From contig BCGQ01000006.1 in the NCBI GenBank assembly GCA_001599355.1, positions 248,001-312,000 of the forward strand: DNA of 64,000 bases, read 5' to 3'. A model generated the notes under the pieces. The model was not told the origin of the DNA and searched no databases. It saw only the letters and a list, made by a program, of their open reading frames with translations. Position numbers and translations under genes: made by a program. Of the stretch, positions 5,356 to 53,154 are shown one piece after another (position 1 is the first letter of the stretch; every line of letters starts with the position of its first letter). Origin of the DNA: Nakazawaea peltata. Lineage: Eukaryota; Ascomycota; Pichiomycetes; Alaninales; Pachysolenaceae.

Positions 5356-8300
5356 ATGGACGGAGACGACCTTTTCGACGTTTTTGACGAAGCTCCTGTT
5401 GATGTGCCATTGGAGATTTCTCCAGTGGTAGAACCAGAAACAGGATCGGCCAACTCCAAAAAGCGCCCTGCATCTCCTGAGCCTTCTGATGACAACAGAA
5501 GAAAGGATAAGAAGAAGGAGAATAATGTGATTAAGAAGGAAAATGACAAAGAGAAAGAGAAGGTCAACCCAGTTGTTGCAGATTCTTTGGAAATTGAAGC
5601 TTCTAGAGAAGTAGCCGAGTCCAGTGGGTTAATGAACAAGCCAGCTGCTAATGGCTCTATCGCTCCAGCTCAAGTCAAGTTAACTCACCAAGTTAGACAT
5701 CAAGTTGCCGTTCCACCTGATTACCCATATGTTCCAATTGGACAACATAAGAGACAGAATGAGGCCAGAACTTATCCATTCACCTTGGATCCTTTCCAAG
5801 ACACCGCCATCTCTTGTATCGATCGTGGTGAATCTGTTTTAGTTTCTGCCCATACTTCTGCTGGTAAGACCGTAGTTGCTGAATACGCCATTGCTCAGTC
5901 TTTAAGGGAGAAACAAAGAGTTATCTATACCTCCCCTATCAAAGCTTTGAGTAACCAAAAATATAGAGAATTATTAGCCGAGTTTGGAGACGTTGGTTTA
6001 ATGACTGGTGATGTTACCATCAATCCTGATGCCGGTTGTTTGGTCATGACTACCGAAATTTTGAGAAGTATGTTATACAGAGGTTCCGAAATCATGAGAG
6101 AAGTCGCTTGGGTCATCTTCGATGAAGTTCATTACATGAGAGATAAAGATCGTGGAGTCGTGTGGGAAGAGACAATTATTTTGTTGCCTGATAAGGTCCA
6201 TTATGTATTCCTTTCTGCCACTATCCCAAATGCTCAAGAATTTGCCGAGTGGGTTTGTAAAATTCACTCTCAACCATGTCACGTTGTATACACCGACTTC
6301 AGACCAACCCCATTGCAACATTATTTATTCCCTGCTAATGGTGAAGGTATTCATTTAGTCGTGGATGAAAAGGGAACTTTCAGAGAAGAAAATTTCCAAA
6401 AAGCCATGGCTTCGATCAGTGATAAATTGGGTGACGATCCAAATTCTCTGGATAAAGGAAGAGGTAAGAAAGGACAAACCTTCAAAGGTGGTAACAAGGA
6501 TGGTAAATCTGATATCTATAAAATCGTAAAAATGATCTGGATGAAGAAATATAATCCAGTCATTGTATTTTCTTTCAGTAAACGTGATTGTGAGTCATTG
6601 GCCTTGAAAATGTCCAAGCTTGATTTTAACACTGACGAAGAAAGAGATCTGTTAACCAAGATTTTCAATAATGCCATTGCTGTGCTACCTGACACCGATA
6701 GAGAATTACCTCAAATCAAACATATTTTACCATTGTTACGTCGTGGTATTGGTATCCATCATTCTGGTTTGTTGCCTATTTTGAAAGAAATTATCGAGAT
6801 TTTATTCCAAGAAGGTTTCTTGAAAGTGTTATTTGCTACCGAAACTTTCTCTATCGGGCTTAATATGCCTGCTAAAACTGTAGTCTTCACTTCTGTAAGA
6901 AAATGGGATGGTAACGGATTCAGATGGGTTTCTGGTGGTGAGTATATCCAAATGTCTGGTAGAGCTGGTCGTAGAGGTTTAGATGACCGTGGTATTGTCA
7001 TTATGATGATCGACGAGAAAATGGAACCTCAAGTAGCAAAGGGAATGGTTAAAGGTCAAGCTGACAGATTGGATTCCGCTTTCCATTTGGGTTATAATAT
7101 GCTTTTAAATTTAATGAGAGTAGAAGGTATTTCTCCAGAATATATGTTGGAAAATTCTTTCTATCAATTCCAAAATGCTGCTAGTGTCCCAGTTATGGAG
7201 AAAAAGATCCAGCTGTTGGAAACTGAGTATAAGAGTATCGAGCTTGAAGATGAAATGGAAATCAAGGACTATCATGATTTGAAGAAGAGCTTGGATTCTT
7301 ATAATGAGGATGTTCGTCACATTGTAACTCATCCAAGTAATGTTCTTTCTTTCTTACAAGGTGGTAGAGTCATTAAAATTAAGGATTATGGATGGGGAGT
7401 AGTTATCAATTATTCCAAGAGAGCTAATAAAAGAAACCCATCTCTGACTTATACTGATCATCAATCTTATATTGTTGAGGTATTTGTCACTTCTATGTTT
7501 ATCGACTCTCCAGTTAATTTGATTAAATTGTTTAATCCAGATTTACTGGAAGGTATTAGACCAGCTAAAGAAGGTGAGAAGACCAGATCTGAGATCATTC
7601 CAGTAACTTTAGATTCTATTCTCCTGTTAAGTAATATCAGATTGTATTTACCAAAGGATCTGAAGAGTGGTGCTCAACGTAAAACTTTGTCTAAAACTAT
7701 TTTGGAAGTTCAAAAACGTCATCCTGATGGTCTTCCTCTTTTGGATCCGGTTGTCAATATGAAAATCGATGATCCAGACTTCAAAGTTTTATTGAGAAAA
7801 ATTGAAGTATTAGAATCTAAATTATACTCGAATTCTTTAATTAACTCCACTAGATTAGAGCCATTATATGAACAATATAAGCTGAAATTAGCTATTGAGG
7901 AAGAAATCAAGGATCTCAGATCTAAGGTTTTGGAGGCTCAACTGGTTATCCAGTTAGATAGTTTAAGACAACGTAAGAGAGTTTTAAGAAGATTAGGTTT
8001 CACCACACAATCCGATATCATCGAATTGAAGGGTAGAGTTGCTTGTGAAATTAGTACAGGTGACGAGTTACTTTTAACGGAACTTATTTTCAATGGTAAT
8101 TTCAACGATTTGACTGCCGAGCAATCTGCTGCTTTATTGTCTTGTTTCGTTTTCCAAGAACGTTCCAAAGAAACTCCTAGGTTGAAACCAGAATTAGCCG
8201 AACCATTGAAACTCATGCAAGAAATGGCCTCGAGAATCGCCAAAGTCTCAAAAGAGTCCAAGGTTGAAATCGTAGAAAAGGAATATATCGAGAAATTCAG

Positions 8301-8541
8301 ACCAGAATTGATGGAAGTTGTTTACGCCTGGTGTAAAGGTGCTTCTTTTACCCAAATTTGTAAGATGACCGATGTCTACGAAGGTTCTTTGATCAGAATG
8401 TTCAAAAGATTAGAAGAAATGTTAAGACAAATGGTGGTTGCCGCAAAGACCATTGGAAATACTTCTCTCGAAGAAAAAATGGAAAAAGCAATGACTTTAG
8501 TTCACAGAGACATCGTCTCCGCAGGTTCCTTATACCTTTAG
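5356..8541 (+). CDS. MTR4: MTR4, TRAMP/nuclear exosome DExH RNA helicase
   Basis: 1061 residues, close to S. cerevisiae Mtr4 (1073). Mtr4 unwinds RNA 3'-5' in the nucleus and feeds it to the exosome, alone or in the TRAMP complex. Seen: acidic/lysine-rich N-terminus (about 1-110), Walker A in AHTSAGKT (about 165-172), DEVH box (256-259), SATIPNA (about 286), [12 protein letters not shown] motif VI (about 530-541), an arch/KOW insertion (about 620-830) and a C-terminal DSHCT domain ending ...[12 protein letters not shown] at 6649-6651 lies in [13 protein letters not shown], where S. cerevisiae has [10 protein letters not shown], supporting CUG as alanine. Pyrimidine-rich promoter directly upstream. 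Confidence 0.97.
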
Positions 8542-9126
8542 TTGCATTTACCCAATACAAACTGTTAACATCTATTTCTCCCACTGTAAATCTCGCTTAT
8601 TAGCTGTATCCCTTTTTTGAGGGGGCATGCGCACACTTATATTTCCTAAAACGGAAATATGTAAACAAGTAAAGTCAAGCCCACTCGATTTTTATCACAG
8701 GTTTGATGTAATCCTCGGATCAGGTAGTTGAAGAGGCTTATCACTTGAAAGGGAAGGAATCAGTGAGTTGAATGGGATGGATCAACTACCCCTGCTTTTT
8801 GAGAGATGGATCCTCGGGGTTGTAGAAGAGTATGGATTTAGGAATATGTTAATGGGGGTGAAGTGAGGTATATGAGGCGAGATATTGAGATAATTTAACC
8901 GCTTGTGAATATAACAATGGTAATTAGAGGTTTTAATTTGCAACCATAAAGGATGACCACATCTAATCTTGAAATTGTGCTGGTATTAGAGGATCCGAGA
9001 AAAATACTTTTTATAAATTATAATTTTAATAAATGGGAAAGAAAATTCTGCAGGAATTTGATTGTAAATTTATTTTTAGATATTCAATTTATTGAAAGAG
9101 ATAGTGACTATTGGTAGAAGGTAAGG
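8542..9126. other. Intergenic between MTR4 and the 9.1-kb membrane-protein gene
   Basis: 585 bases without a gene. Three GGATC-centred words recur (around 8715, 8808 and 8990: CTCGGATC, GGATCCTCGG, GAGGATCCGAG), a possible binding site for an unknown factor. Confidence 0.4.
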
Positions 9127-10302: not shown

Positions 10303-10542
10303 GAGAAAAAAAGTTCCTAATCGAGCCCAGAAATTACATAGTGAAAAGGATACGAATAAATAGGAGTAAACGACTAGAAAGAAAACGTAGTCTAATTGAA
10401 CTTGATCTCTACAAAGAAACATCTTAAATAAGTTTCATATTTTTTTGTTTATTATGAAAACAACCCGTATATTAAAAAATTTTTTTGTTTGTTTTGTTAT
10501 GGAGGAAGGCAACTAAAATGACTAAGTAGATACATACAACAT

Positions 10543-11112
10543 TTAGTGGGTCTCAGTTGGGATCTCGAAAACAACTTGCTTACCGGTCAACTTAGAGTAA
10601 ACGGCTTGCAAAGAGTCCAACTTGTGGTCAATGTTAGAAGAGTCCTTAGAGTCCAATAAAACCTTGGCGATCTTGTTACCACCGACCAAGTATCTGACTC
10701 TCTTACCGACAATCTCGGTTGGGAAGACCAAGTCCTCCAAGATCTTGTCGTGAACAGCGGTCAAAGTTCTGGATCTTGGTCTCTTTTGTTGTTGTCTGGA
10801 GACTCTACCTGGCTTTGGCAAGATTCTTCTCTCGGCCAAGAAGACAACGTGCTTGTCTGGGAACTTCTTCTCTAATTCTCTGGTCAATCTGATTTGAGCC
10901 TTGTGGAAAGAAGATAATAATGGGACTGGGACGAAGATAGCAATAGCCTTCTTACCACCAGCAACATCGATCTCTCTGATGGACTTGAATTGCAATGGTC
11001 TCAAGTCGGCCTTCAAGTCTGGCAAGTTAGCTTCCAAGTCAACAAAGGCTTGGGCGACTTGCAATTCCAATTCAGATGGCTCTGAGGACAAAATCTTAGC
11101 AGCAGCAGACAT
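10543..11112 (-). CDS. RPS7: RPS7, 40S ribosomal protein eS7
   Basis: 189 residues against 190 in S. cerevisiae, no intron in the coding region (the S. cerevisiae copies have one). Seen: [16 protein letters not shown], the core block [19 protein letters not shown], the basic segment [28 protein letters not shown] and C-terminal [12 protein letters not shown]. Highly biased codon use fits strong expression. Its neighbours RKI1 and ARF3 keep the S. cerevisiae order and orientation (YOR096W-YOR095C-YOR094W). The upstream region holds a CACGACC element, GAAAAATTTT words and a TTAGGGT site. Confidence 0.98.
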
Positions 11113-11222
11113 TATTTCTTTCTATACTGATCTATATTAATGTTGATGATACAATATATGAACTATTAACAAATACCTTTTAGAAAAAATATTCCATCAA
11201 GAGAAAATTTGTGAAAAAAAAA

Positions 11223-11249
11223 AGAAAAATTTTGGAAGAGAAAAATTTT
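11223..11249 (-). promoter_or_regulatory. RPS7: RRPE-like A/T elements upstream of RPS7
   Basis: Two GAAAAATTTT words match the ribosomal RNA processing element known from ribosome-biogenesis promoters (TGAAAAATTTT). They lie between the CACGACC element and the RPS7 start. Function inferred from the motif. Confidence 0.45.
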
Positions 11250-11295
11250 TGTGTGTAGAGGGGGGAAAACGAAAAAAGCAGACAAAATAGGTGGT

Positions 11296-11309: not shown

Positions 11310-11371
11310 TTTGTTATTTTTAAGCTGCGCGAGTCCAAAAACGCGCAAAGAGTGGTGTTATGATGTTGGAG

Positions 11372-11872: not shown

Positions 11873-12667
11873 ATGATTGTTCTGGGATTTTTGAGAAACC
11901 AATCCTTCAGAAACCTTACATTCAGAGGAATACGCCATAACTCATCCGCTAAGATGTCTGCTGATCTCGTTGAACAAAGTAAGAAACTTGCCGCTTTTAA
12001 AGCTGTTGCTGACAACTTGAAGCAGGAGTATAAAGTTGTTGGAATAGGATCTGGATCCACAGTCGTATATGTTCTGGAGAAAGTAGGACTCTTGCCATTC
12101 AAGGAGAACCTTGTTTGTGTTCCAACTGGGTTCCAATCCAAGCAATTGATTGTCGCTAATGGCTTGAAATTGGGTACTCTTGAGCAATACCCAAAGATCG
12201 ATATCACTTTTGATGGTGCTGATGAAATTGATTCGGATTTGAACGTCATCAAGGGAGGAGGAGCTTGTCTTATGCAAGAGAAATTGGTTGCTGCTGCCTC
12301 TGATAGATTTGTTATCGTTGCTGACTACAGAAAGAAATCCGCTACAGGTAAATTAGGACATGGATGGACTAAAGGTGTTCCAATTGAAGTCATTCCAGAG
12401 TCGTATCCATTGATCATGGCTAAATTGAAGGAATTAGGTTCGATTCATGCCACTTTAAGAAGTGGAGGACTGCTGAAAGCTGGTCCTGTAGTCACCGATA
12501 ATGGTATGTTCCTCATCGACTGTCACTTTGGTGAGATCGACAATGTTAAAGAATTGCATGACAAGATCAAGATGATGACCGGTGTTGTTGATGTCGGTCT
12601 CTTTGTTGATATGGTTGAGAAATGTTACATTGGAGAATCCAGTGGAGAAGTCAGCGTATTGGAGTAA
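11873..12667 (+). CDS. RKI1: RKI1, ribose-5-phosphate isomerase, with a presequence-like N-terminal extension
   Basis: Interconverts ribose 5-phosphate and ribulose 5-phosphate in the pentose phosphate pathway. Seen: [48 protein letters not shown]. From ATG 11873 the protein is 264 residues; from ATG 11954 (MSADLVEQ) it is 237. The 27 extra residues carry four Arg and one Lys, no acidic residue, and a serine near the end, like a mitochondrial presequence, so two forms are possible; the cytosolic start is likely 11954. CTG codons at 12074-12076 and 12470-12475 sit where S. cerevisiae has Ala (VYVAERIG) and Ser-Ala (GGSAKAGP). Convergent with ARF3, 86 bases apart. Confidence 0.95.
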
Positions 12668-12753: not shown

Positions 12754-13305
12754 TTATTTGCTATTAGCATTGGTGGTAATCCAACTTAAAGTCTCTACTA
12801 ATCCAGTACCATTGGTAGCAACAGTTGGAATGATACACCAATTATGAGATTTGATAGTATCCAATTCCAAAGCATCGATCAATTCAGCAGGCTTCAAACT
12901 TCCAGGAACGTCTTGTTTATTGGCTAATACACAGACCAAACAGTCCTTCAATTCTTTATCGTTCATAACTTTGTACAATTCCTTCTTAGCATTATCCAAT
13001 CTGGCATGATCAGAGGAATCCACGACAAAGATCAACAGATCTGTCCCACTGAAATAATGTCTCCACAAGGCTCTGATTCTGTCTTGTCCTCCGATATCCC
13101 ATGTATGCATCTGGATATTCTTATATTTGATTGTTTCTACATTGAAACCGACAGTTGGTACGATAGTAGTAGCCTTCCCCAACTTCAACTTGTATAAAAT
13201 AGTGGTCTTACCGGCGTTATCCAAACCAAGCATCAATAACCTCATCTCACTTGGCAGGTTCTTCAACATTGAGCTGGCGAACATTCTCGAAAATACTCCT
13301 CCCAT
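12754..13305 (-). CDS. ARF3: ARF3, Arf-family small GTPase
   Basis: 183 residues. Seen: N-terminal MG (Gly2 available for myristoylation), P-loop GLDNAGKTT, switch block [27 protein letters not shown], and NKQD. It is somewhat divergent from the main Arf1/2 group. The ARF3 name (Arf6-like, polarity and plasma-membrane traffic) rests mostly on position: RPS7-RKI1-ARF3 matches YOR096W-YOR095C-YOR094W in order and relative strand. A CTG at 13036-13038 lies in [14 protein letters not shown], where S. cerevisiae Arf3 has TTALIFVIDSS. The C-terminus is extended by TTNANSK. Sequence alone would only give Arf family. Confidence 0.85.
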
Positions 13306-13806: not shown

Positions 13807-15657
13807 CTACATAAATTTAACATAAGAGGTTGGGAACATACCCTTTCTACCGTCGACTTCACCTTGAGTCCATCCTGAACCGTCATCTTCTTGGGTGATG
13901 GTGATCTTGTCACCCAGATGTAAATCTATCTCATCAGTGTCTGCTGCCGAATAGTCATACAACAGCTCGCAATATTTGATCTTCTTGGCTCCCCTTCTTG
14001 GGGCGACTTTTGGACCTTGTTTTTTCTGTGGGGAAACCTGCGCACTGATTTCAAGGTACGAAGTTGGAACTAAGCCTTCCAGACCTTGGGAATTGACTAC
14101 TTTAGTCCAGCCAGAGCCGTCATCCATCTCGGTCACAGTGAGTGAACTACCCAGTGTAATTGAAACCTCGTCATCTCCAGTACTGTCATACAGGTAAAGT
14201 GCTTTGGCCGTGGCTACAGACGAAGATACAGTACCCAGATGGGATCCTCCTGACATTGTAGAAGCTGTACTTTGAGCTCTATGACGTAATGTGTTAAATA
14301 TCTTATTTCCTGTCCGTGTCAATGAAGTATCACTTGTATTCGTAGACACAGGGGTGGCCGATGTCTCATGACTGAGGGCATTCTTTTTGTAGTGGGGTTT
14401 CAAGAAGTTCAATCTTGATTTCTTTTTAGTTTCAAGGGGAGCATCTAATGATAAATCTTTATCACTAGCGGCATTTTGAATTGTTTCAATTTCCACTTCC
14501 AGAATTACTCTTTTAGTGTCATCTACGGCAAATCTACTAAGCAGGGTCAAATGCTTTGAAACCAATTCGTCAAATTTGAACAGATCTTCTCTTGACATCA
14601 CTTTCTTTTTATATGCCAGCTTCAGTTGTGAAATTTCTCCCAAAACGGACTTTTCATTATCACATGTTTGTTCGATTTTCTCATATTGTGGGATCAGCGC
14701 GTTCAATCTCTTCTTTAACTCTAACAATTCGTCATCGGAAGTAATCATTGTCTCATCATCATGCCATACACTGGATGGAGTATAGTAGAAATCTGCCGGT
14801 TCTGTCCATTGTCTGATGTTGTGTTTTATGAACATAGCAGTGTCCAATGAGCTGTCATTTTGTTTTACAACCTCATCAGCCAGGTTTAACAGCTTAATAC
14901 AACTCTCCAAATGCTGTTTTTCAATCAGAGAAGCAGTGAGCCAAATCAGATTCAATCTCTCGACACGAGATTCGTTCAAATCTTGCAATGAGTCCAATAC
15001 TTCTGGCAAATCTTGGTAGAAATACTTATCTTTCAATCTATTAGCGACATTGATCTTGATTAAGTAGTCATTTTTGGAGATATTCATGTCTGTTTCTTTG
15101 GATTTCAACTTCTTTTGAGTCTTATCAGAGGAACTCTTACCCAGTTTAGCTCTTTGATTCTCCATCAGTTGACACATGCTATCATAGTTCTTCTTACTTT
15201 TCAGTAAATCGTCATAGTACGAGTCTCTTTGTTTGATCAATTCGGTATTAAAACTGTCGTAACGCAGTCTAATCAGCTCATACTTCGACAGAAGCTTTGA
15301 CAGTTCATCGGAGACTTTGGAAGTCATACTGGAGGCCAACAGTTTGTGAGTCTTGGCCACGGTCTCGGTTTGAGTCAATATTTCATTCCAAGCAACAAGA
15401 GAAGCACTTTCCAAAGACCCTGGTGTGACAACAGGATCATCACCAACACTGAGATTGGTGGATATCTTCAGCTTTTTCTTGAACGACTCATTACACAACG
15501 TCTGTAATTTGGATGCATATTCCAGTTCGATTTGGGCTCTCTCACGGTAGAAATGCTCGATGTCACCTAACCAATTGATTCCATTTTTGATCCAAATATT
15601 GGTAGGTTTGTAACTGTCTTTCAATTCGTTTCCAATACTCAACAGAGCGGCACTCAT
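13807..15657 (-). CDS. BZZ1: BZZ1, F-BAR/double-SH3 actin-patch protein
   Basis: 616 residues (S. cerevisiae 633). An N-terminal F-BAR domain (about 1-290; GNELKDSYKPTNIWIKNGINWLGDIEHFYRERAQIELEYASKL) with coiled-coil helices is followed by a linker and two SH3 domains, about 480-537 (ALYLYDSTGDDEVS ... PTSYLEI) and 562-616 (LLYDYSAADTDEIDL ... PTSYVKFM). Both SH3 domains share the block MDDGSGWT / EDDGSGWT. Bzz1 binds Las17/WASP and promotes Arp2/3 actin assembly at endocytic sites. It is not part of the S. cerevisiae RPS7-ECM3 block, so it is an insertion relative to that order. Confidence 0.95.
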   Translation of the reverse strand: MSAALLSIGNELKDSYKPTNIWIKNGINWLGDIEHFYRERAQIELEYASKLQTLCNESFKKKLKISTNLSVGDDPVVTPGSLESASLVAWNEILTQTETVAKTHKLLASSMTSKVSDELSKLLSKYELIRLRYDSFNTELIKQRDSYYDDLLKSKKNYDSMCQLMENQRAKLGKSSSDKTQKKLKSKETDMNISKNDYLIKINVANRLKDKYFYQDLPEVLDSLQDLNESRVERLNLIWLTASLIEKQHLESCIKLLNLADEVVKQNDSSLDTAMFIKHNIRQWTEPADFYYTPSSVWHDDETMITSDDELLELKKRLNALIPQYEKIEQTCDNEKSVLGEISQLKLAYKKKVMSREDLFKFDELVSKHLTLLSRFAVDDTKRVILEVEIETIQNAASDKDLSLDAPLETKKKSRLNFLKPHYKKNALSHETSATPVSTNTSDTSLTRTGNKIFNTLRHRAQSTASTMSGGSHLGTVSSSVATAKALYLYDSTGDDEVSITLGSSLTVTEMDDGSGWTKVVNSQGLEGLVPTSYLEISAQVSPQKKQGPKVAPRRGAKKIKYCELLYDYSAADTDEIDLHLGDKITITQEDDGSGWTQGEVDGRKGMFPTSYVKFM

Positions 15658-24283: not shown

Positions 24284-26068
24284 ATGGTGTTCGAGGCTGC
24301 TTTGAAATCACGAGGGGTTTATTTGCGTAAGGACATCATCAGAAACTTACTTCGTATAAGGTTGCAATTGAGAAGCAACAAGGAATTCCAAAGGACTGCA
24401 ACGGCGTTATTAAGCTCGGCGATATCCGCACCAAGTAACGGTTCGAGTCAATTCAATATCAATTCGTCATCAGATAGAGCTGCTTCTCAACCACCACATC
24501 TGTTTGTTCGCAATCAAGCTCATAACCATCTGCAACATCGTCATTACTCCACTTCTACAAGGAATAATAAAGATCACAAGTACACTAACAACCAGAAGCG
24601 TGGAAGACAACAACATAACGGACCTTCCGATCAGGATAGTAAGAATAACATGAAATTACTGGCGTCAAATGTGTTGGCTGCTGTGTTCTTTACGTCATTA
24701 ATTGTCGAAGAGAGTTATATGGTAAATAGAGGGAAGGGTGTCTTGAGGTATGATGTTGCCCAGTTACCTAGTAACAACCCAATAGAGGATGCTAGAAGTG
24801 AACAGATTATTCAAGTTCCTGTAGAGACAGATGAACTGGGTACTGATGGTGGTGCTATTACAGATTGGTTGTTCTTTGGTGTGTATGATGGTCATTCTGG
24901 TTTCAACACTTCTGCAAAATTAAAGAATGAGTTGATCGGTGCCGTTGTGTCTGAATTGACCAATGTATATACTTTGAATAATGAGACCAAGTTGCGTAAA
25001 GTTCCTGATGCAAATACCATTGATTTGCTGATTAGAAATGGGTTCTTGAAGTTGGATGATGAGATCGTTAATACCTCAATTGAGAAGTTATTTAATTCCT
25101 CTTTGAGTAAAAGTGACGTTTCAGAGTTGTTGATGCCTCTGCTTAGTGGTTCATGTGCATTATTATCTTTCTATGATACAAGATCCCAGATTTTGAAGGT
25201 TGCAGTCGCCGGTGATTCAAGACTGCTCTTGGGATCTTTGAATAATAACAACGAATGGACAGTCGAACAATTGAGTGTCGATCAAACCGGTTCTAATCCT
25301 ACAGAAGTTTCTCGTATGATTCGTGAACATCCAGATGAACCTGATGTCATTAGAAGGGGTCGTGTTTTAGGTTCTTTAGAGCCTACCAGATCTTTTGGAG
25401 ATGCTCGCTACAAATGGACCCAAAAAGTGCAAGAAAAAATCTATAATCAATTTTTTGGTAGAAAATCCCCTCCTAATTTATTGAGCCCTCCATATGTAAC
25501 TCTGGAGCCTGTTGTCACTACTACAAAGATTGACCCATCGAAGAATCAATTCTTGGTCTTGCTGTCTGACGGATTGTATGAAATGTTGACAAATGAGGAA
25601 ATTGTAGGTTTAGTTGTTAGATGGATGGAGAAAGAAAACATGCTTTCAGCTTCTTATCAAGAAAATTCAGGTGGTTTCTTTAAATACTTTAGTTTTGGAT
25701 CTTCTTCAGGTGATGACTACAACCTGAAAAAGTTGCCAAAGGTGAAAGATTTAACGGCTACGCCTGAATCTTCCAAACAGCTGTTCCGTAGAACCACCCC
25801 GGCTGAAGAATCGACATATCTTTTGGAAGATTCCAACGTTTCGACCCATTTGATAAGAAATGCGTTATCCAATGGTGGATCTAAAGAACATAGTGAAATG
25901 CTCGCTAGTATTCCGTCGCCTCTTTCCAGAAGATACAGAGATGATTTGACAGTGACAGTTGTTTTCTTCGGTAATGAAGGAGAGCCTAACGATTCTGGCA
26001 AATTGGAGATGAATTTCAAAGGCACAAATGAGAAAGGCGGAAATGTGGAGCCTAAACCTAAGTTATAA
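24284..26068 (+). CDS. PTC5: PTC5, mitochondrial PP2C phosphatase of pyruvate dehydrogenase
   Basis: 594 residues (S. cerevisiae 572). The N-terminus is basic and polar (KSRGVYLRKDIIRNLLRIRLQLRS) as expected of a mitochondrial presequence, with a hydrophobic segment near 130-145. PP2C motifs: NRGKGVLRYDVAQLPSNNPIED, FFGVYDGHSG, SGSCALLSFY, VAVAGDSR, GSLEPTRSFGDARYK, LSDGLYE and SRRYRDDLTVTVVFFG. CTG codons at 25223-25225 (GDSR-CTG), 25028-25030 (DL-CTG-IRNGF) and 25562-25564 (VL-CTG-SDG) sit where S. cerevisiae Ptc5 or the wider PP2C family has alanine. It corresponds to YOR090C. Confidence 0.96.
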   Translation: MVFEAALKSRGVYLRKDIIRNLLRIRLQLRSNKEFQRTATALLSSAISAPSNGSSQFNINSSSDRAASQPPHLFVRNQAHNHLQHRHYSTSTRNNKDHKYTNNQKRGRQQHNGPSDQDSKNNMKLLASNVLAAVFFTSLIVEESYMVNRGKGVLRYDVAQLPSNNPIEDARSEQIIQVPVETDELGTDGGAITDWLFFGVYDGHSGFNTSAKLKNELIGAVVSELTNVYTLNNETKLRKVPDANTIDLLIRNGFLKLDDEIVNTSIEKLFNSSLSKSDVSELLMPLLSGSCALLSFYDTRSQILKVAVAGDSRLLLGSLNNNNEWTVEQLSVDQTGSNPTEVSRMIREHPDEPDVIRRGRVLGSLEPTRSFGDARYKWTQKVQEKIYNQFFGRKSPPNLLSPPYVTLEPVVTTTKIDPSKNQFLVLLSDGLYEMLTNEEIVGLVVRWMEKENMLSASYQENSGGFFKYFSFGSSSGDDYNLKKLPKVKDLTATPESSKQLFRRTTPAEESTYLLEDSNVSTHLIRNALSNGGSKEHSEMLASIPSPLSRRYRDDLTVTVVFFGNEGEPNDSGKLEMNFKGTNEKGGNVEPKPKL

Positions 26069-32300: not shown

Positions 32301-32372
32301 AGATAAAAAATAATAGTAAAAGGGTAATTAATGACTAAGTAGAGGGAAGAAATGAGAGAAATACAAGGGATA
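29325..32372. other. Gene-free region of about 3.0 kb upstream of the zinc-finger gene
   Basis: Holds only short frames (83, 73 and 97 codons) that look random. Contains many A/T runs (for example 29818-29828, 30822-30842, 30894-30903). No tRNA, intron signals, LTR pair or recognisable protein remnant seen. It borders VPS21 at its 3' end, so the whole stretch could serve as the zinc-finger gene's promoter and 5' leader. Confidence 0.5.
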
Positions 32373-33110
32373 CTAACATCCACAAGCATTTGCCCCACCT
32401 AAAGAATTATTTGAGGCATTCAAATCTACTCTACCCGAGTCAGCCCCGACGTTCAATCCACCAGAACTAGACGAAGCATTACCTTCAGCTCCCGGAATAG
32501 GAATCTTGTTACCAATAGCCATAAATACTTCATTCACATTGTAAGAAGTTTTAGCAGAAGTCTCGAAAAATAACAAACCTTCCTCATCCGCCAACAGCTG
32601 TCCTTCTTCAACACTAACCTTTCTGTTGGATTCCTCACCTTCACCTTCTCCATCTTCAGAAGCGACAAGATCATACTTGTTACCACACAAAGCAATGATG
32701 ATATCCTTATTCAGTTGTTCATGCAATTCTTTAACCCAATGTCTCAGCTTGATAAAACTGGCAGGTTTTGTTATATCATACACAACCAAAGCGGCTTGAG
32801 CATTTCTGTAGTACATAGGAGCTAATGAAGCAAACCTCTCTTGTCCAGCAGTATCCCAAATTTCAAACTTTATCGTCTTTTCACCAATGGTGCATCTCTG
32901 TGTTAAGAACAGGGCTCCAATAGTTGGTTCTACATTTACAGTTAGTATCTTAGTCCAGTCAAAGCCTCTCTCTTATCACTTACCCTTGTTCTCTTGGAAG
33001 TCATTGCTAACAAATCTCAATACCAATGATGATTTACCAACAGCAGCCTCTCCCAACAACACTAACTTGACTACTGTCGCGTTACTCTTACTACCCGCTG
33101 ATGATGACAT
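32373..33110 (-). CDS. VPS21: VPS21, Rab5-family endosomal GTPase; two exons
   Basis: Exon 1 is 33110..32984, exon 2 is 32929..32373; the intron (32983..32930, 54 nt) has donor GTAAGT, branch GATACTAAC and acceptor TGTAG. The spliced protein has 227 residues (S. cerevisiae Vps21 is 210). Seen: P-loop [15 protein letters not shown], effector ENKEPTIGA-x-[26 protein letters not shown] and C-terminal CGC for double prenylation. An acidic insert (GEGEGEESN) follows NKYDL, and the tail is Ser/Gly/Asn-rich. A CTG at 32912-32910 falls at the invariant alanine of TIGAAF. It directs vacuolar protein sorting and early endosome fusion. Confidence 0.96.
32930..32983 (-). other. VPS21: Intron of VPS21
   Basis: 54 nt, GTAAGT donor, GATACTAAC branch, TGTAG acceptor about a dozen bases beyond the branch A. 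Interrupts a Glu codon after phase 1. Confidence 0.92.
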
Positions 33111-35115: not shown

Positions 35116-38100
35116 TTACATAGCACTCATCTCCGAAGGTGCAGGAGAATTAGATTGCTCCGCATTATACAGAGGACAAACCTTCTTATTGGTACTAATA
35201 TGACCCGCAGATCCACAACGTTTACATTTTCTGGTTGTTGGTTTCTTTGTTTGCTGAGAAAATGTCAGGAACTCGTCACCTCCACCAACAGATTCATCGT
35301 CTCCCAATTTACGTTTCTTGTGAGGGCCTTTTTTCTTTCTTCTCTCCTTTGATTTTTCCAATCTTTCAATTTCTTCAAGCAAGGCTTTCTTCATCCGCTC
35401 ATTTTGTTCAGGATCAGCTGTAGGACCCAACTCTTCAGGATTCATATCACCACTGATAGAATTAACTTGATCTCTGATCTTACGTTCAATATAAGCTTTG
35501 ATAACAGCTGGATCTTTCACGATCTCTGCCTTTCTTTGTAACATTCCGTTGGAATCTCTAACCATTCTGGTGATTTTCAAGAATTTCCTATTCAACTTAG
35601 GATTGGAAGGCTCAGGATTTTTCAAATGAACTTTAGAACCTTCGCGAATCGAGTCGGTGAGATCAGAGCTGTCTATCTCTTGAATTCTATGCTTCAGTAC
35701 AGATTCATCGTATGCACTCAACGTCTTGGTTTGAGTGTACCAAACTCTGGCGATCTCATCTTCATACAGTTTCTGTTGCAATGCAACATTGTATTTATGT
35801 ACAGGTCCTTGTTTGGACTTATCTTCATCCTTCTTACGTCTTCTCTTTTTCTCCGGTTTCAGACCTGCCAGTGGAGTTCCAGGAGTTGCTGGAGTCATCA
35901 GAATAGACTCATCCCCAGTGAGAGACTTGAAACCACCTTTCATCGAGGTTCTTAAGAATGAGAATGCGGCTCCACGACCACTTGGGTCTCCTTCACCACG
36001 AATCTGTAACATCAGCTTTCCCTGAATAGCATTGAGGAAATTTCTAGTGATATTCCAAGGAGCCAACTGTTCCTCCATACTTTCTTCACCAATATTCTTG
36101 TTGTTGTAGTTGGACTTTTCTCTATTTCTTTGTTTCTGTCTTTCAATCTCCTCTTCGTCTCCATAATAGTAGGTAATATCATTCAAGTATTGATCTCCAT
36201 TCGTCATGGATTCTAACAAAGCAATGTCTTCAGGAGTAATCATATTTCTGATCTGTTCAAAGTTAGGCAAGATGTCTCCTTGCTTCACCTTCCAATAACC
36301 TTGGTCTTCTCCCGATCTTTGGTACTCCATAAACTCTTTTAGTCTTTGTCTATTCTGCATATCGTTCTGCTCTGGGAAATGCATTGAAATATCTCTCACG
36401 GAGATCCTATTGTTAGGATTTTTGTTCAAACATCTATAAACAATCATCTTCAATCTATTCTTGGAAGTAGAAGTCACTTTTCTAGAATGAGGTCCTGGGA
36501 TCTCTACGGCTGGAAGCTGTTGACCAACAGTGAATATATGTACAAGCGGTCTTAAGAAGAATCTAGGAACATTTGAGGAGCCTCCAGTGCTTCTAATCAA
36601 TAAGAAATCGGTTTCCCTCGGTTGTTGTTTGAATACAGGTGCTCTCATCATTCTATTATAAAGAGCAGGCACAACATTACCCGGCTCGACGAAACCGAAA
36701 GACCAGAATGGAGACTTATCTTGAACACCAAGGACATGAGTCTCTCCTACCAGAAGTTTAGGTCTTGTAGAGTCGTCGTCGTTTCTTTTCCTGTAATAAT
36801 TGATCAATTTAGAGGCCATACCGAAGTTAGATAATGCAAGAGGAGTCTCTTCAGTGTATTCCAAGGCAAAGAAGTTAGCACTGTCACCCAATGTCAAATC
36901 TGTTGTCTTAGAGAACACCTCAGGAATAGTCTTACCTTTATCTTTCTTGGTCTTTCTCTTCTTCACCTTATGAAATACCCATTGAGCACCAGGACGAACA
37001 TGAATTCTAGGTCTATGCAAAATTCTTGCCTGCTTACCATCGATTTTGATCTTATAGTATGGATATTGTAATCTAGTGGCAGGCATAGAATGCTCAATAG
37101 ATAAATCTCCAACGGTGGAACGTACTTTTGCTTGGTAATTTCCTCTCAATAATTCGTACAGTTGATCGTTGGAGAGATCAAATTTAGACTCGAATTCAGT
37201 ATCTGGGTTAGGAATCTTCTTCTGCTTCTTCTCTTTCTTAAAGAACAACACATGTGGATCATTTGCATCCAATTTCAAATTCAATGACTGTAAATTAATA
37301 CGACCTTCAAAGATATCATCGTCATCTATCCAATCATCCACACTATAAGGATCGATTTTGAATCTCTTAGAAGGTGGTTCCAACTCGTTCTTGATCTTAT
37401 CGTCATCACTAGATTCACCGGCATTCAAAACCAGATCATCGTCCCAATCACATGTCGCCAAAACCATATCAGGATCATAATCCTCAATATTGGGTTTCCC
37501 AAATTTGATTTCAGGCTCCTGCGGTACTAATACTTGCAAATCAGCATCAGTGATAGGGATAACCTTCTGTCCAGGCAGAGATTTAGACGATTCCTCGGTC
37601 TTCTTCTGCGTCGTATTCCAAAATGAGGCCTTAGCAGCCGGTCTAGAGAAAAGCTTTCTCTCATTAACATCAATCTCAAACTGAAGCTTAGTAGGAATGA
37701 GTGGCATATCGACCAACAGAGGTCTATGCCATGGATATCCTTGATACTTCAAGGAGGAGAATGTAGGAATCATTTTCATGGTCTTACCCACACTAAAACC
37801 AGGGTAATGTTTCAGAAGCAAGTACTCTTCTCTTTGGCGCTTAGCCAGCAGAGCCCTTTCTTGATGTAATTTGGCCTCCAATGCCAGTTGCTCTTCGTCT
37901 TGCTGATCAAGATCTTCCAAATCATCTTCCAAATCACTTTCTCCTATTTGATTTATATTCATATCATCAGGTTTATGACCAAAATTGTCCTCTTCGATGT
38001 TAACCGCCAAACCTTCCTGCTCTAACTGGTTCATCAAATCATCGTCATCACCATCATCGGCTACAATGGGCACTTCAACTACAGGAACCAGTTCTTCCAA

Positions 38101-38289
38101 ATCCTCATCATCAGCCAATTCATCTTCGTCCTCAAAATCCATGGCATCAGGAGCATGGTAAGTTTCGCCTTCTTTGAACATCGACCCAAAATCAAGATTG
38201 CCACTCATGGCTTTCTTGAATAAATCGTCTTCACCCATCAGATCACCCAGAGCCTTAGTTCCGGCCTTCTTAGGCTGCAGTTGGGTCAT
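35116..38289 (-). CDS. TAF1: TAF1, largest TFIID subunit
   Basis: 1057 residues (S. cerevisiae Taf1 is 1066). N-terminal acidic TAND-like segment (MGEDDLFKKAMSGNLDFGSMFKEGETY; acidic to about 140) that in the family binds TBP. The central conserved block runs about 420-900 (RPRIHVRPGAQWVFHKVKKRK, FFALEYTEETPLALSNFGMASKLINYYRKR, FFLRPLVHIFTVGQQLPAVEIPGPHSRKV, APWNITRNFLNAIQGKLMLQIRGEGDPSGRGAAFSFLR). A CCHC zinc knuckle lies near the C-terminus (CKRCGSAGHISTNKKVC, about 1022-1038). No bromodomain, as in other yeasts. Divergent from MED19 through a repeat-bearing 339-base promoter. Confidence 0.97.
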   Translation of the reverse strand: MTQLQPKKAGTKALGDLMGEDDLFKKAMSGNLDFGSMFKEGETYHAPDAMDFEDEDELADDEDLEELVPVVEVPIVADDGDDDDLMNQLEQEGLAVNIEEDNFGHKPDDMNINQIGESDLEDDLEDLDQQDEEQLALEAKLHQERALLAKRQREEYLLLKHYPGFSVGKTMKMIPTFSSLKYQGYPWHRPLLVDMPLIPTKLQFEIDVNERKLFSRPAAKASFWNTTQKKTEESSKSLPGQKVIPITDADLQVLVPQEPEIKFGKPNIEDYDPDMVLATCDWDDDLVLNAGESSDDDKIKNELEPPSKRFKIDPYSVDDWIDDDDIFEGRINLQSLNLKLDANDPHVLFFKKEKKQKKIPNPDTEFESKFDLSNDQLYELLRGNYQAKVRSTVGDLSIEHSMPATRLQYPYYKIKIDGKQARILHRPRIHVRPGAQWVFHKVKKRKTKKDKGKTIPEVFSKTTDLTLGDSANFFALEYTEETPLALSNFGMASKLINYYRKRNDDDSTRPKLLVGETHVLGVQDKSPFWSFGFVEPGNVVPALYNRMMRAPVFKQQPRETDFLLIRSTGGSSNVPRFFLRPLVHIFTVGQQLPAVEIPGPHSRKVTSTSKNRLKMIVYRCLNKNPNNRISVRDISMHFPEQNDMQNRQRLKEFMEYQRSGEDQGYWKVKQGDILPNFEQIRNMITPEDIALLESMTNGDQYLNDITYYYGDEEEIERQKQRNREKSNYNNKNIGEESMEEQLAPWNITRNFLNAIQGKLMLQIRGEGDPSGRGAAFSFLRTSMKGGFKSLTGDESILMTPATPGTPLAGLKPEKKRRRKKDEDKSKQGPVHKYNVALQQKLYEDEIARVWYTQTKTLSAYDESVLKHRIQEIDSSDLTDSIREGSKVHLKNPEPSNPKLNRKFLKITRMVRDSNGMLQRKAEIVKDPAVIKAYIERKIRDQVNSISGDMNPEELGPTADPEQNERMKKALLEEIERLEKSKERRKKKGPHKKRKLGDDESVGGGDEFLTFSQQTKKPTTRKCKRCGSAGHISTNKKVCPLYNAEQSNSPAPSEMSAM

Positions 38290-39261: not shown

Positions 39262-39278
39262 TTTAATATTATAGCTAT

Positions 39279-44124: not shown

Positions 44125-44685
44125 TTAACTGACAATACAACATCCTTTAGTTTCTTCATCTGGTAAGAGTAAACTTGTCCTTGCGGCATATTCAAATATA
44201 TCGTCTACTCCTTCTCCATTTAATGCGGAGCATTCGAGGTAAATTTTGGCTCCGATTTGTTTCAGTACCTGTCGTCCTCTCTCACTTTGTACACAATTGG
44301 GGTTTTTACTGTCATCTCTTAAATCTTTTTTCAACCCCACTAATATTATGGGTACGCGTGGACAATATTTGCTCACTTCGTCTACCCATTTAGAAGCTGC
44401 GTTATCCAATGAATCTTTAACATCTATGGAGAATCCAATGAGTATCACATTGGCATTCAGATATGATAATGGACGTAATCTTTCGTACTCTTCTTGTCCA
44501 GCAGTATCCCAAAGCAGAAGCTCGACACTTCTTCCATCGACTCTGCATCTTGTTGAATAATTCTCAAATACCGTAGGGTGGTACTCTGTTGGGAACTCTC
44601 CTAAGGTGAACACATATAACAACGAGGTCTTCCCACAGGCACCATCACCCACTATCACGATTTTTCTTTTAATTGAGTCTGACAT
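44125..44685 (-). CDS. RHO2: RHO2, Rho-family GTPase
   Basis: 186 residues from ATG 44685 (MSDSIKRKIVIVGDG); the upstream TTG codon in frame is not a start. Seen: GDGACGKTSLLYVFTLGEFP, effector YHPTVFENY, WDTAGQEEYERLRPLSY, LVGLKKDLR, ECSALNGEGVDDIFE and CAAX box CIVS with a preceding cysteine. These match Rho2 better than Rho1 or Rho3. CTG codons at 44515-44517 (VEL-CTG-LWD; alanine in Rho1) and 44263-44265 (QV-CTG-KQIG; alanine in S. cerevisiae Rho2) support CUG as alanine. Rho2 acts in polarity and cell-wall integrity. RHO2 and NST1 are neighbours, as YNL090W and YNL091W. Confidence 0.95.
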   Translation of the reverse strand: MSDSIKRKIVIVGDGACGKTSLLYVFTLGEFPTEYHPTVFENYSTRCRVDGRSVELLLWDTAGQEEYERLRPLSYLNANVILIGFSIDVKDSLDNAASKWVDEVSKYCPRVPIILVGLKKDLRDDSKNPNCVQSERGRQVLKQIGAKIYLECSALNGEGVDDIFEYAARTSLLLPDEETKGCCIVS

Positions 44686-48500: not shown

Positions 48501-48725
48501 ATTCTCATCGATATATGTCTCTGGAGTAATCAGCAGCAGCAGCAGCAGCAGCTTGGACTTCTTCTTCTTCTTTTTCTTCTTCTTATTGGAAGTTGATGAT
48601 GCGTTGGCCAGGTCTACAGGTCCTTGTTCTGTAGAAGGCTCATAATCGAAATGCACATCATCTCCAGCGATAAACTGGTTGCTTGCCACATTGGGCAACA
48701 CTGTCGAGCCATCCACTACCGTCAT
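45531..48725 (-). CDS. NST1: NST1, large coiled-coil stress protein with His-Asp tract
   Basis: 1064 residues (S. cerevisiae Nst1 about 1240). Order: Lys run (about 49-57), seven CTG codons (59-65), conserved blocks SNQIWEESNEGQLAVRDFWVSLPADERRQLLKESKEDVL and CDCSLCWRKRNIIEHELQMMYDSFF, a zinc-binding-like CNECGRLCHDYEYDMEELDENE, a His/Asp tract of about 70 residues (about 337-410), an acidic segment, a highly charged coiled coil (about 490-640), and a Gln/Asn/Pro/Ser-rich tail. S. cerevisiae Nst1 (YNL091W) is linked to salt tolerance and P-bodies. The CTG run would read polyalanine, sensible after a lysine run, whereas seven leucines would be odd. Confidence 0.93.
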   Translation of the reverse strand: MTVVDGSTVLPNVASNQFIAGDDVHFDYEPSTEQGPVDLANASSTSNKKKKKKKKKSKLLLLLLLITPETYIDENDDSEYPTSRVITTGPENTVVVRPLNNNSTLSTNEGTVGQKKKKRHDKSLSNQIWEESNEGQLAVRDFWVSLPADERRQLLKESKEDVLLAIKENDEVNCDCSLCWRKRNIIEHELQMMYDSFFSIFDSKQAMPLDTQASFPEIFNSILSSQQHEHQLRQPGHSKSLMNPVHQHKVTDSHQPTSAPTSTSKEGIMSIAEDILSNNGSKFLDIMDKLAERRMAREDFFHRQLHMRMQNGEDSDEGACNECGRLCHDYEYDMEELDENEHHDHEHHHDHHGHDHHDHEHHHDHDLEHEHHHDHDHHHDHDHHHDHDHHHDHDHDHDHDHDHNHEQDHDQQELDLAAAVTQGYSDAAGHGYEHVFDEVDGHEHHEEDYYDEDDIEEIEQGEEEYEIEEEYEDDPLEENARFEEARGMIHAFTTKMFLERLFEKYKLKVANDRSNKLLEELEMEEKRKKEKEEKKQKQKEKQKEKKRLQQQAKEEEKLRKELEKLELARLLEEEKARKIEEQRKKEEEKRQKKLEEQKKKQAEAERIRKEKLEKERLKKEEKQRKKDEERRKKDLELLLQQQLEEQLKLKEKQVTEEQVTSQITTQITTQIGEMSLQSDSKAVPLGPIDSKDLLSTLYGKNSEETLTNSALPDFLSMNVVPQVQNQHSAGGMTPLNGSISLQLSRQNSQVGFIPSFSSAQMVPPGLLPSSNGSGFNLLSQPQQQPHQLIPTQLPNPLSLDSNTWSKPDPLSVPPTNMFPPAPQHLPVFNDPVSGLESLTSVTNTFSNFGTDSTWTNPLWSNPTSEMNTSSIWSSQSLMGVPQTNPQLVVPNGDRSMSTISNGTNSSQSQIPWNNEELTATDITMIQQAAAQAFQQIFVGDSTSWVPRDSLFNQTAKILQGLINLNMSKFLKALSNPSLSHWFEFHYDDYGAASLIRVGNKMSSGTRLNSLSIDQFAPTQLPQPPTQLQSKPFMGLNQQSSQQSTTSINDPLYNIWNNQNSFQLI
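47497..47715 (-). repeat. NST1: CATGATCATGG-type repeat encoding His-Asp/His-Glu tract of NST1
   Basis: Repeats of (CATGAC)n and related units inside NST1 give alternating His, Asp and Glu for about 70 residues. The sense is open in other frames too, which explains false frames on both strands. Confidence 0.9.
48531..48551 (-). repeat. NST1: (CTG)7 triplet repeat in NST1
   Basis: Seven in-frame CTG codons, residues 59-65. Polyleucine under the standard code, polyalanine under the code inferred here. Confidence 0.95.
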
Positions 48726-49627: not shown

Positions 49628-51595
49628 ATGTCTGGTGCTTCTGCTGTTACTACTGCTATTGACTTGTTTTCTGCTGACCATGAGGATGATGCCAACTTCT
49701 TTTCTCCAACTCCGCGTCAAATTCTCCGCATCGCCATGAATTTGAAGTTCTTAATCGATGAGATCATCCCTATTGAGTATGATATCGGTCTTGTTACTGT
49801 CCCAAAGTCACGTATCTTGAATGATCGTGTTATTAAGGCTGTGTATGATGCCGCTGGTGGTGAGGGTGATGGACAACATGGAAGTTCCTCTCATAAGTAT
49901 AGAGCTGCCCTTGTCTTTGCTTTATTAAAAGTATGTGGGTGGTACTGGGACCTTGCGGCTAGTGAATTGACAGACTATGATTTGTACAAAGTTAGAGCTT
50001 TGCTGCTGGAACAGTTGGCCAAGATCATTATTGAGAGAGAGGAAGATGAGAGATATTTGTTTATCTCCATGTTATGTCGTAGATATTCTATCAATGTAAA
50101 CTCTGAGGACTCCGAGCCAGAAAGTGCTTTGGAGTTGGCTGTAGATATGCATAGTACTACTGTTATTAGTTCTTCTGGTTATCAAAGATGTATGTCATGG
50201 CTTTGGAATGGTCATATTGTCCAGAGTCTGACTAATCCTTTGAGTTATGTCATTTACAATGGCTCTGCTGACACCAGATTCAGTGTTCATTTCAACCCGG
50301 ACAGAATTAAATCTCCATTGTACCAAAATATGTTGGAGATCTTCTTCTCTGCTGTCTTCTTACTGTTATATACTATTATCATTAACACTGATAGTGAGAA
50401 TAGAACTTTGAACTTCTTTGAGGTGTTGTTCTACATCTTTGCTGGTTCTTATATCGTTGATGATTTGATTAAATTATACCATGTCGGATCTTCTTTCTTC
50501 AGTTTCACCATTCTTTTCAATGATCTTACTTATGGGATCATTGTGTTATCTGTTGTATTCAGAGTAATGGCTTTGAACACTTTGTCCAACACTCACTCTA
50601 TCGTTTATGATCATATTTCTTACCGTATTCTTTCACTTGCCGCACCTCTTATGTGGGCTCGTATGATGCTTTACCTTGATGCTCAGCAGTTCATTGGTAT
50701 CATGATCGTAGTTATTAAACATATGATGAGAGAAAGTGCCATCTTCTTCTTCTTGATCTTCTTCATCTTGGTAGGTTTCTCCCAAGGTTTCCTTGGTTTG
50801 GACCAGCTGGATGGTAAAAGAGACGCTACTTCTTTAATTTTCTCCGTATTGTTCAGAACTGTTTTAAGTGGTCCTGATTTCGATGCCTTTGGAAACTTCT
50901 CACTTCCTTATACTTCGATTTTATACTACTTCTTCACCTTCTTGGTCGTCACCATTCTTTTGAACATCCTTGTTGCCTTATATTCTACTCTGTATTCTAC
51001 CGTTTTGGATAATGCTAATGACGAATATTTGGCTCTTGTTGCTCAAAAGACTTTGAAATATATCAGAGCTCCAGACTCGAATGTATTTGTTCCACCATTA
51101 AACATGATCGAATTTGTGTTCATTGATCTTCCATTCCAATGGTGGATCTCCAAGCTGAACTTCAAGGCCTTGAATAGATCTGTTATGACCGTAGTTTATT
51201 CTCCATTTTTGGTCTATATTGCTTACAAGGAAGTCAGAGACGCTAAGAGAATCTCCTACAACAGATCTAAGAATTTGGCTGATGATTCGAACCAAATTGA
51301 TACTCCATGGTCATTGACCGATGGTTTCGATGGTTCAACAGACCTGCTGTTCCATGATGAAAGACTCGCTCTTGAATTGAAATTGCAAAGAAACCTGGAA
51401 CAAGAAGATCCAACTTTCCAAGCCAATTATCACCAATGGGTTGCTAATGTCAAATCGTTGCCTCAACCTGTAGAGAAGGCATTCGAAGATGGTTTAGGTT
51501 GGGAGACCCATGCCCTTCATGAGAAGGTGGACGAGTTAACTCAACTTGTCAAGACTCTTATCAAAGATACTGAAGAATTAAAGAGAAAGAGTTGA
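49628..51595 (+). CDS. YVC1: YVC1, vacuolar TRP-type cation channel
   Basis: 655 residues (S. cerevisiae 675). A cytosolic N-terminal domain (about 1-225; PRQILRIAMNLKFLIDEIIPIEYD, IIEREEDERYLFISMLCRRYSI) is followed by about six transmembrane segments (about 235-460: LEIFFSAVFLLLYTIII through FFTFLVVTILLNILVALYSTLYSTV) with a pore region before the last (FRTVLSGPDFDAFGNFSLPYTSILYYF). The C-terminal cytosolic tail ends in a short coiled coil. Yvc1/TRPY1 releases calcium from the vacuole on osmotic shock. It corresponds to YOR087W. Its stop codon is 5 bases from that of ATG18 on the other strand. Confidence 0.96.
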   Translation: MSGASAVTTAIDLFSADHEDDANFFSPTPRQILRIAMNLKFLIDEIIPIEYDIGLVTVPKSRILNDRVIKAVYDAAGGEGDGQHGSSSHKYRAALVFALLKVCGWYWDLAASELTDYDLYKVRALLLEQLAKIIIEREEDERYLFISMLCRRYSINVNSEDSEPESALELAVDMHSTTVISSSGYQRCMSWLWNGHIVQSLTNPLSYVIYNGSADTRFSVHFNPDRIKSPLYQNMLEIFFSAVFLLLYTIIINTDSENRTLNFFEVLFYIFAGSYIVDDLIKLYHVGSSFFSFTILFNDLTYGIIVLSVVFRVMALNTLSNTHSIVYDHISYRILSLAAPLMWARMMLYLDAQQFIGIMIVVIKHMMRESAIFFFLIFFILVGFSQGFLGLDQLDGKRDATSLIFSVLFRTVLSGPDFDAFGNFSLPYTSILYYFFTFLVVTILLNILVALYSTLYSTVLDNANDEYLALVAQKTLKYIRAPDSNVFVPPLNMIEFVFIDLPFQWWISKLNFKALNRSVMTVVYSPFLVYIAYKEVRDAKRISYNRSKNLADDSNQIDTPWSLTDGFDGSTDLLFHDERLALELKLQRNLEQEDPTFQANYHQWVANVKSLPQPVEKAFEDGLGWETHALHEKVDELTQLVKTLIKDTEELKRKS

Positions 51596-51600
51596 ATTTT

Positions 51601-53154
51601 TTATACCACTAGAGAATATTGATTTAAAAGAATACAATCACCGCCCCGTTCAGGGTCTAAACCGAAATTGTAGAAGAAGCCATCGGAGGTTACTACCATA
51701 ACATGTAGGAGACGTTTAGTATTCAAATCACTGGTATTATCGGCACTACTAGAGGAACTTCCAAGACTACCACTTGTGTTTTCAAGGAGTACACTAGGCA
51801 CTAAATCCGATACCATATTATTTCCAATAGCAGCGACACTCTTGACTCCCTTGGCTGCTGGAACTTTCAAAGATGCAAAATGACGATTTGGTTCTAAAAT
51901 GGAGGAGAACTTTGGAGGCAAATATGTTCCCATTTTGGCGGCTGCTTTCTTGCCCAAAGTTTGTGAGGTTCTACGTAAAATACGGGCCACCGAGGCACGC
52001 GAAGAATCGATGATTGGTTCTACTTTGTCCTGTGATTCCGCACTGTTGTAGGAACCTATAGAAGAAGTAGACATACGCCTGTTGAGACGATTCAGGAGAG
52101 CGTCCACTTCTGCACTTCCACTGTTATTATTGTTGTTATCTTCATCACTATCGGATGATTCATTTTTTAAGACGATTTTCTTTGTTGGACCACCCTTTGG
52201 AGCAGATGAAATTTGAGGCAGTTGTTGGAGAGATGTCTCTTTCACAGCTTCATCTTCACCAAGTCTAAATATGTGGACAGTCTCTGTAGCTGAACTAGCA
52301 GTGAGGAATTTTCCATCATTACTGAACGATAATGAATATATTTTAGTAGGATACGTTCCTCTTCTGAATTGATAAAGTTTTACACCTGTTTCAACAGAAA
52401 AAACCCTCACAATGGTACCCTTCTCAGACAGTGTTGCCAATAAGAGACCATCCAAACTTAACAGAATGGCACTCAATGGAGTTTTATGAGCCTCGATGAC
52501 CGAAAGAGGTTGTAATGTCTTAGCGTTGAAGATGATCACGTCCCCATTTCTGATGGAGGCCACGTTTTGATGCAGTGAATTGTTATCTGGATTGAACAGA
52601 GAATTGGTACTATTTGCCTTTGGTGGAGAAGGATACAGAAGAAAATTGACGTCTGAATCGGGAGAAAGCAGGATCAATCCGTTCGGATTTGCCGGAATCT
52701 CAATCGTATGTATCAATTTCATCGTAGCAATGTCATATATGTAAATTGTCTCTTCAAGTAAGACTACAAGCCTTGTACGGTTCATTTTTATGGATAAAAT
52801 AGAGCTTGGGAATGTCAATTCGCATATCACTGACTGCCTCTTTGTGTTAATGACTTTCAATTTACGGGGGGAGAGCGATGGCTCATCACCCAACCCGACA
52901 ACAGCTAACAATGAGGTGGAGAAAAGCATTTGTACGATGCCCATAGCGCCATCGGTCTTTTTATAGCAATTTGCAAACGGATCACACGTGAAGATCTTGT
53001 ACCCATTGTTATACGCCACCGACAAACAACTGTTATCTTGATTAAAACTGACAAAATTGATCGTCTCGGGACTAGTATTAAGAGCGTGGGCGCCTTCGGA
53101 AGCAGCCTCGGCGGCAGCCGTGGACAGAGCAACAGCGATAGGATTGGTGGCCAT
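51601..53154 (-). CDS. ATG18: ATG18, PROPPIN phosphoinositide-binding protein
   Basis: 517 residues (S. cerevisiae 500). Beta-propeller with the PI(3)P/PI(3,5)P2-binding FRRG motif at about 264-267 ([20 protein letters not shown]). Diagnostic blocks: [56 protein letters not shown] and the C-terminal [18 protein letters not shown], which matches Atg18 rather than Atg21 or Hsv2. The N-terminus has an extra Ala-rich stretch of about 25 residues. CTG codons at 52429-52431 (AT-CTG-SEKGT) and 52462-52464 (AI-CTG-LSLDG) sit where S. cerevisiae has alanine. It acts in autophagosome formation and vacuole size control. Confidence 0.96.

Follow-up and report, generated by a model that had tools for sequence, protein, structure and literature searches.

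Which amino acid is specified by the codon CUG in the genes carried by positions 248,001 to 312,000 of contig BCGQ01000006.1, a 64-kb stretch of DNA referred to here as the window? The initial annotation had proposed alanine, as in-frame CTG codons appeared to fall on conserved alanines in at least seven genes. The answer obtained here is the same, in that the window is almost certainly budding-yeast nuclear DNA in which CUG is translated as alanine (NCBI table 26), a reading supported by two partly independent tests, namely a tally of the residues facing CTG in alignments and the scores of Pfam families under different genetic codes. The proteins encoded here are hence to be translated with table 26. 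With the standard code, ~1.6% of the codons in these genes would be given a wrong leucine, to the detriment of annotation, structure prediction and heterologous expression.

The proposal had been illustrated by 12 coordinate entries, amounting to 13 codons, in the genes termed MTR4, RKI1, ARF3, PTC5, VPS21, RHO2 and ATG18; gene names are based throughout on Pfam families and chains of known structure, the organisms of the matched chains being presumed. All 13 codons read CTG on the gene strand and lie in frame, the VPS21 codon only after removal of a 54-bp intron (32930-32983). When CTG was masked and one homologue was aligned per gene, alanine was found opposite ten of the 13 (VPS21; PTC5 25223 and 25562; RKI1 12074 and 12473; both RHO2 codons; both ATG18 codons; MTR4), serine opposite one, and two were uncovered (PTC5 25028, ARF3 13036). 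The serine falls at RKI1 12470, next to the alanine at 12473, in agreement with the Ser-Ala pair expected there, and the variable position of the VPS21 motif TIGA-x-FLTQ is alanine in all five chains printed, as is that of the PTC5 motif GDSR-x in both chains printed. Of the seven named genes, ARF3 was covered by its Pfam score alone, and the ten alanines are not all conserved more widely, the exceptions being RHO2 44263 and RKI1 12074. Because these codons were selected examples, all CTG codons of ten genes were tallied.

Ten genes, each with a structurally characterised homologue suitable for alignment, entered the tally. For eight of them the chain used ranked first; for MTR4 it ranked fifth (and is the same protein), and for RHO2 it ranked second. 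Every codon was compared with the residue opposite, and CTG was replaced by X to keep the alignment neutral among readings. The ten genes contain 82 CTG codons, 24 of which were unalignable and dropped, leaving an aligned fraction of 58/82 compared with 241/313 for GCN codons. Alanine is the commonest residue opposite CTG (26/58), followed by Ser, Ile, Lys, Gly and Leu (4 each), Pro (3), Glu, Asp and Met (2 each) and Thr, Arg and Asn (1 each), and the columns are thus dominated by neither leucine nor serine. The excess of alanine is far above chance, as alanine is met by 36/316 serine codons (Fisher p 2e-8) and 5/390 other leucine codons (p 3e-21), compared with 120/241 GCN codons; true serine codons face serine at 144/316 sites. 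Alanine lies opposite at least one CTG in nine of the ten genes, SSH1 being the sole gene with none. In well-conserved surroundings, defined as at least 70% identity among the neighboring residues, five on each side, 23 CTG codons face Ala 18 times, Pro three times and Thr and Ser once each, with Leu, Ile and Met absent, and GCN codons in such surroundings face alanine at 74/105 sites. CTG is roughly as faithful to alanine positions as GCN is.

In the same alignments, every codon was also scored against each of the 20 amino acids, the distributions being trained on the other codons (leave-one-codon-out). For CTG, the likelihoods are +37.9 bits for Ala, +1.7 for Ser, -56.6 for Val and -113.1 for Leu, with alanine exceeding serine by 36.2 bits (32.3 with the other RHO2 homologue). 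Whichever of the ten genes is dropped, alanine still ranks first among the 20 amino acids, and when whole genes were resampled in 1000 bootstraps it won 968, Ser 25, Leu 4 and Val 3. Per site, the Ala-over-Ser margin of CTG (~0.62 bits) is close to that of GCT (0.66), as opposed to TCT (-0.94) and AGT (-0.76). In the control, the standard amino acid ranked first for every other sense codon with at least 10 sites, apart from ATG and TGG, which are untestable by design because no synonymous codon remains to learn from; CTC (27 sites) ranks Leu first only at -1.1 bits, misses occurred on small numbers (CTA, five sites; CGA, one site), and CTT faces Leu at 34 of 63 sites. Within the reach of this control, the codons other than CTG are standard.

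For the second test, 30 genes (13,301 residues) were scored against Pfam with CTG read by NCBI table 26 (Ala), 1 (Leu) and 12 (Ser). Excluded were two genes without a family, a zinc-finger gene scoring alike under all three tables, near-constant scores (among them DSHCT, DEAD, Sec61 plug and carboxypeptidase propeptide) and, where families overlapped, the weaker ones; some excluded rows favor Leu or Ser (e.g., MMR_HSR1 on ARF3, Leu 28.6, Ala 27.6, Ser 26.6; Arf on RHO2, Leu 38.5, Ser 38.3, Ala 38.0). Of the 32 domains retained, Helicase_C and RNase_T carry little information (at most 0.6 bits apart), the Helicase_C stretch containing no CTG. Alanine exceeds leucine by 134.2 bits summed and is better in 29/32 domains, with one tie and two domains favoring leucine, namely Y_phosphatase (0.5 bits) and zf-CCHC_6 (1.6 bits). 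These two domains, together with the CTG codons of SSH1, which face L, I, M, L and I and at two sites correspond to leucine in three homologues, are what a standard-code reading can call upon, in which CUG would be leucine and the earlier examples would have been picked by luck; it has to contend with leucine at 4/58 sites, a likelihood of -113 bits, a Pfam sum 134 bits below that of alanine and, even in SSH1, a SecY profile without net leucine preference. Leucine is excluded as the general meaning of CUG, and we give that reading practically no credence.

Serine is disfavored less strongly than leucine. A serine meaning (table 12, Ser1 or Ser2 clade), under which the alanine columns would reflect easy Ala/Ser exchange, is second-best in both tests, and Ser scores above Ala in 13/32 Pfam domains, 11 of them by <1.5 bits and the largest, YVC1_C, by 4.3 bits. 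Summed over all domains, alanine leads serine by 32.4 bits (bootstrap interval 5.9 to 60.9), and its clear wins are few, namely PP2C (8.4), PROPPIN (6.6) and SH3 (4.9 bits), so that the case against serine comes from the size of these wins and from the alignment tally. There, CTG faces Ser at 4/58 and Ala at 26/58 sites, the reverse of true serine codons (Ser 144/316, Ala 36/316), and in well-conserved surroundings the counts are Ser 1/23 vs. Ala 18/23. An origin of the alanine columns merely in Ser/Ala exchange was rejected, as true serine codons meet alanine at just 36/316 sites, and a serine code is considered very unlikely.

Some results weaken individual sites or weigh against alanine. 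Opposite RHO2 44263, three RHO1 chains have Ala, but two other Rho1 chains, the top-ranked one among them, have Arg, and at RKI1 12074 Ala occurs in 1xtz only, the other four printed chains having Leu, Ile, Val and Ile. Substituting the top-ranked RHO2 chain lowers the tally to Ala 25/58, with likelihoods of Ala +31.6, Ser -0.7 and Leu -113.9 bits. The gene-bootstrap 95% interval for Ala minus Ser (-1.1 to 68.8 bits) just crosses zero, and by domain count alanine is preferred to serine 17 to 13 with two ties (Wilcoxon p 0.07), which is indecisive. In the search for the decoding tRNA, ARAGORN (bacterial-code setting) found no tRNA genes in the 64-kb window, and Rfam at gathering scores gave one snoRNA match and zero tRNA over the whole window. 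The counter-example among the genes is SSH1, a Sec61-family gene (main exon 1929..3263, minus strand; best chain 2ww9), whose five CTG codons face Leu (3054-3056), Ile (2997-2999), Met (2841-2843), Leu (2667-2669) and Ile (2481-2483), two of these sites being Leu in all three homologues printed. Leu, Ile or Met thus lies opposite 5/5 CTG vs. 3/39 GCN codons of this gene (Fisher p 5e-5), a pattern spotted post hoc among ten genes.

At the five SSH1 sites, in the above order, the SecY profile scores L minus A at +0.5, -0.9, -0.7, +0.9 and -0.2 bits. As these values are near zero, SSH1 is a caveat and no proof of leucine decoding, and its use as such was rejected, the profile having no net leucine preference. 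A contaminated or foreign segment was also considered; the adjoining NTM1 N-terminal methyltransferase gene (3796..4515, plus strand; six CTG, Ala opposite one; Pfam Ala 274.1, Ser 271.5, Leu 263.0) favors Ala over Leu by 11.1 bits, and the segment is not obviously foreign. We attribute the SSH1 pattern to divergence of an evolving membrane protein or to sites where CUG once meant Leu and has since become Ala.

Ser2-clade yeasts retain tRNA-Leu(CAG) alongside tRNA-Ser(CAG), and a comparable arrangement, with CUG mainly Ala and partly Leu through a second retained tRNA, would account for SSH1. It would also fit Leu, Ile or Met opposite CTG at 10/58 sites vs. 15/241 for GCN in the ten genes (p 0.014), an excess that is no longer significant once SSH1 is removed (5/53 vs. 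12/202, p 0.36) and that has no counterpart at well-conserved sites (0/23); moreover, the SSH1 sites could tolerate alanine, or be old CUG-Leu sites turned Ala. Such dual decoding is regarded as exceedingly unlikely. The related idea that some genes, with SSH1 as the candidate, keep CUG at ancestral leucine sites, as fossils of the old code or with partial leucine via a retained tRNA-Leu(CAG), is improbable, if somewhat less so. If true, partial leucine reading of the SSH1 CUGs would be a case of ambiguous decoding in a CUG-Ala yeast, of which the portions of the literature consulted hold no report in the Ala clade.

As an observation apart, the listed SSH1 reading frame is without ~45 N-terminal residues, and the minus-strand upstream frame (to about 3500) reads RLVDLVKPFGSIIPEIELPYTLDFDEK, preceded by the intron-end-like TTTACTAAC...TTTATAG. 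Since the N-terminal residues sit upstream behind intron-end-like sequence, SSH1 probably has an intron directly after its start codon.

Gene by gene, the alanine reading draws on the following sites. The MTR4/DOB1 helicase gene (5356..8541, plus strand) has nine CTG codons, with Ala opposite three (6649-6651, 7444-7446, 7942-7944), and RKI1 (11873..12667, plus) has four, three of them aligned (Ala 12074-12076, Ser 12470-12472, Ala 12473-12475). In the PTC5-like PP2C gene (24284..26068, plus), four of 11 CTG codons align to 3mq3 and all face Ala (25139-25141, 25223-25225, 25502-25504, 25562-25564). VPS21 (Rab5; 32373..33110, minus), with its one intron, has four, facing Ala at 32910-32912, 32745-32747 and 32712-32714 and Lys once. 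TAF1 (35116..38289, minus) contributes six aligned codons of 21, with Ala opposite two (36013-36015, 35767-35769), and the three CTG codons of the RHO2-like gene (44125..44685, minus) face Ala (44515-44517), Pro and Ala (44263-44265) in 9pe1, the last facing Arg in the top-ranked chain 6jik. The ten CTG codons of YVC1/TRPY1 (49628..51595, plus) face Ala four times, Gly three times and Ser, Lys and Leu once each. ATG18 (51601..53154, minus) has nine, eight of them aligned (Ala 5, Leu 1, Lys 1, Asp 1), and the alanine-facing ones include 52429-52431 and 52462-52464. As to the placement beside Pichiales expected for Alaninales, ATG18 scores, among chains of known structure, 637 bits with 5ltd, presumably from an Ogataea species, ahead of 428 bits with 6kyb. 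Two further genes were compared by Pfam score, namely the ARF3-like gene (12754..13305, minus; two CTG; Arf bits Ala 226.2, Ser 225.0, Leu 223.9) and an F-BAR/SH3 protein (13807..15657, minus), presumably BZZ1-like, with 27 CTG codons (SH3_1 bits Ala 87.5, Ser 82.6, Leu 74.6; FCH bits Ala 69.7, Ser 70.9, Leu 65.5).

CTG accounts for 233 of the 14,299 codons across 30 ORFs (open reading frames), or 16.3 per thousand, and for ~23% of alanine codons if counted as Ala. The ORFs 10543-11112 and 53846-55687 are free of CTG (0/802 codons, with a probability of 2e-6 at the average frequency); they resemble a ribosomal protein (RPS7) and an SSB-type HSP70, names and strong expression that are presumed. 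If few tRNA copies serve the codon, its avoidance in these two ORFs is what one would expect. The tRNA reading CUG would carry the anticodon CAG and have alanine identity. In the Ala clade, this tRNA arose via anticodon mutation of an existing tRNA gene, a route open to it since alanyl-tRNA synthetase does not depend on specific anticodon bases (PMC5951914).

The remaining features of the window, which has a GC content of 37-44% in 4-kb steps and genes that are mostly single-ORF, are as follows. Its only Rfam match at gathering scores is the C/D-box snoRNA snR60/Z15 (4627-4730, minus; RF00309, 65.9 bits). A run of seven CTG codons (48531-48551, minus) lies behind a lysine run in a large low-complexity protein, presumably NST1-like, that also carries a long His-Asp repeat; the run is poly-Ala under table 26 and poly-Leu under the standard code. 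A 261-residue ORF at 43010-43795 (minus), with a signal-peptide-like start by eye, gives no Pfam match whichever of the three codes is used. Genes truncated by the window ends are a protein kinase (1-1446, minus), which we take to be IKS1-like, and the Chs7 chitin synthase export chaperone (63414-64000, plus). Two intergenic regions of 2-3 kb (26069-28157 and 29325-32372) are without ATG-started ORFs of at least 100 aa (amino acids) and are long for a gene-dense window.

The CUG-Ala finding is correct, yet the phenomenon has already been published, and the detail added here comprises the CTG share of alanine codons, its absence from two ORFs and the SSH1 exception. Three CUG changes are described for budding yeasts, the Ala clade being Nakazawaea, Peterozyma and Pachysolen (PMC5951914), and NCBI taxonomy has an order Alaninales with the family Pachysolenaceae. 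In a further study, Codetta was applied to 462 yeasts; it agreed with the established CUG assignments for 453 and reached no decision for the other nine (PMC8629427). With the table 26 code of Alaninales the window shares the codon, its new meaning and the setting in budding-yeast nuclear genes, from which we infer that the organism is a member of this clade; the GC content of ~40% vs. 42.3% in Nakazawaea ambrosiae (PMC10106607) is non-discriminating. The same source on the three changes remarks that CUG of recoded clades tends toward poorly aligned regions (PMC5951914), and the CTG alignment deficit is milder here. The CUG-Ser1 and CUG-Ser2 codes (table 12) are alike in that the same codon is reassigned to a small residue, but differ in that the CTG columns here hold Ala at 26/58 vs. 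Ser at 4/58 sites. In Ashbya mitochondria, CUU and CUA are reported to have been reassigned to alanine (PMC3874161), so that alanine takes over Leu-box codons there as it does here; that case, however, is mitochondrial and concerns other codons, CTT being leucine in the window (34/63).

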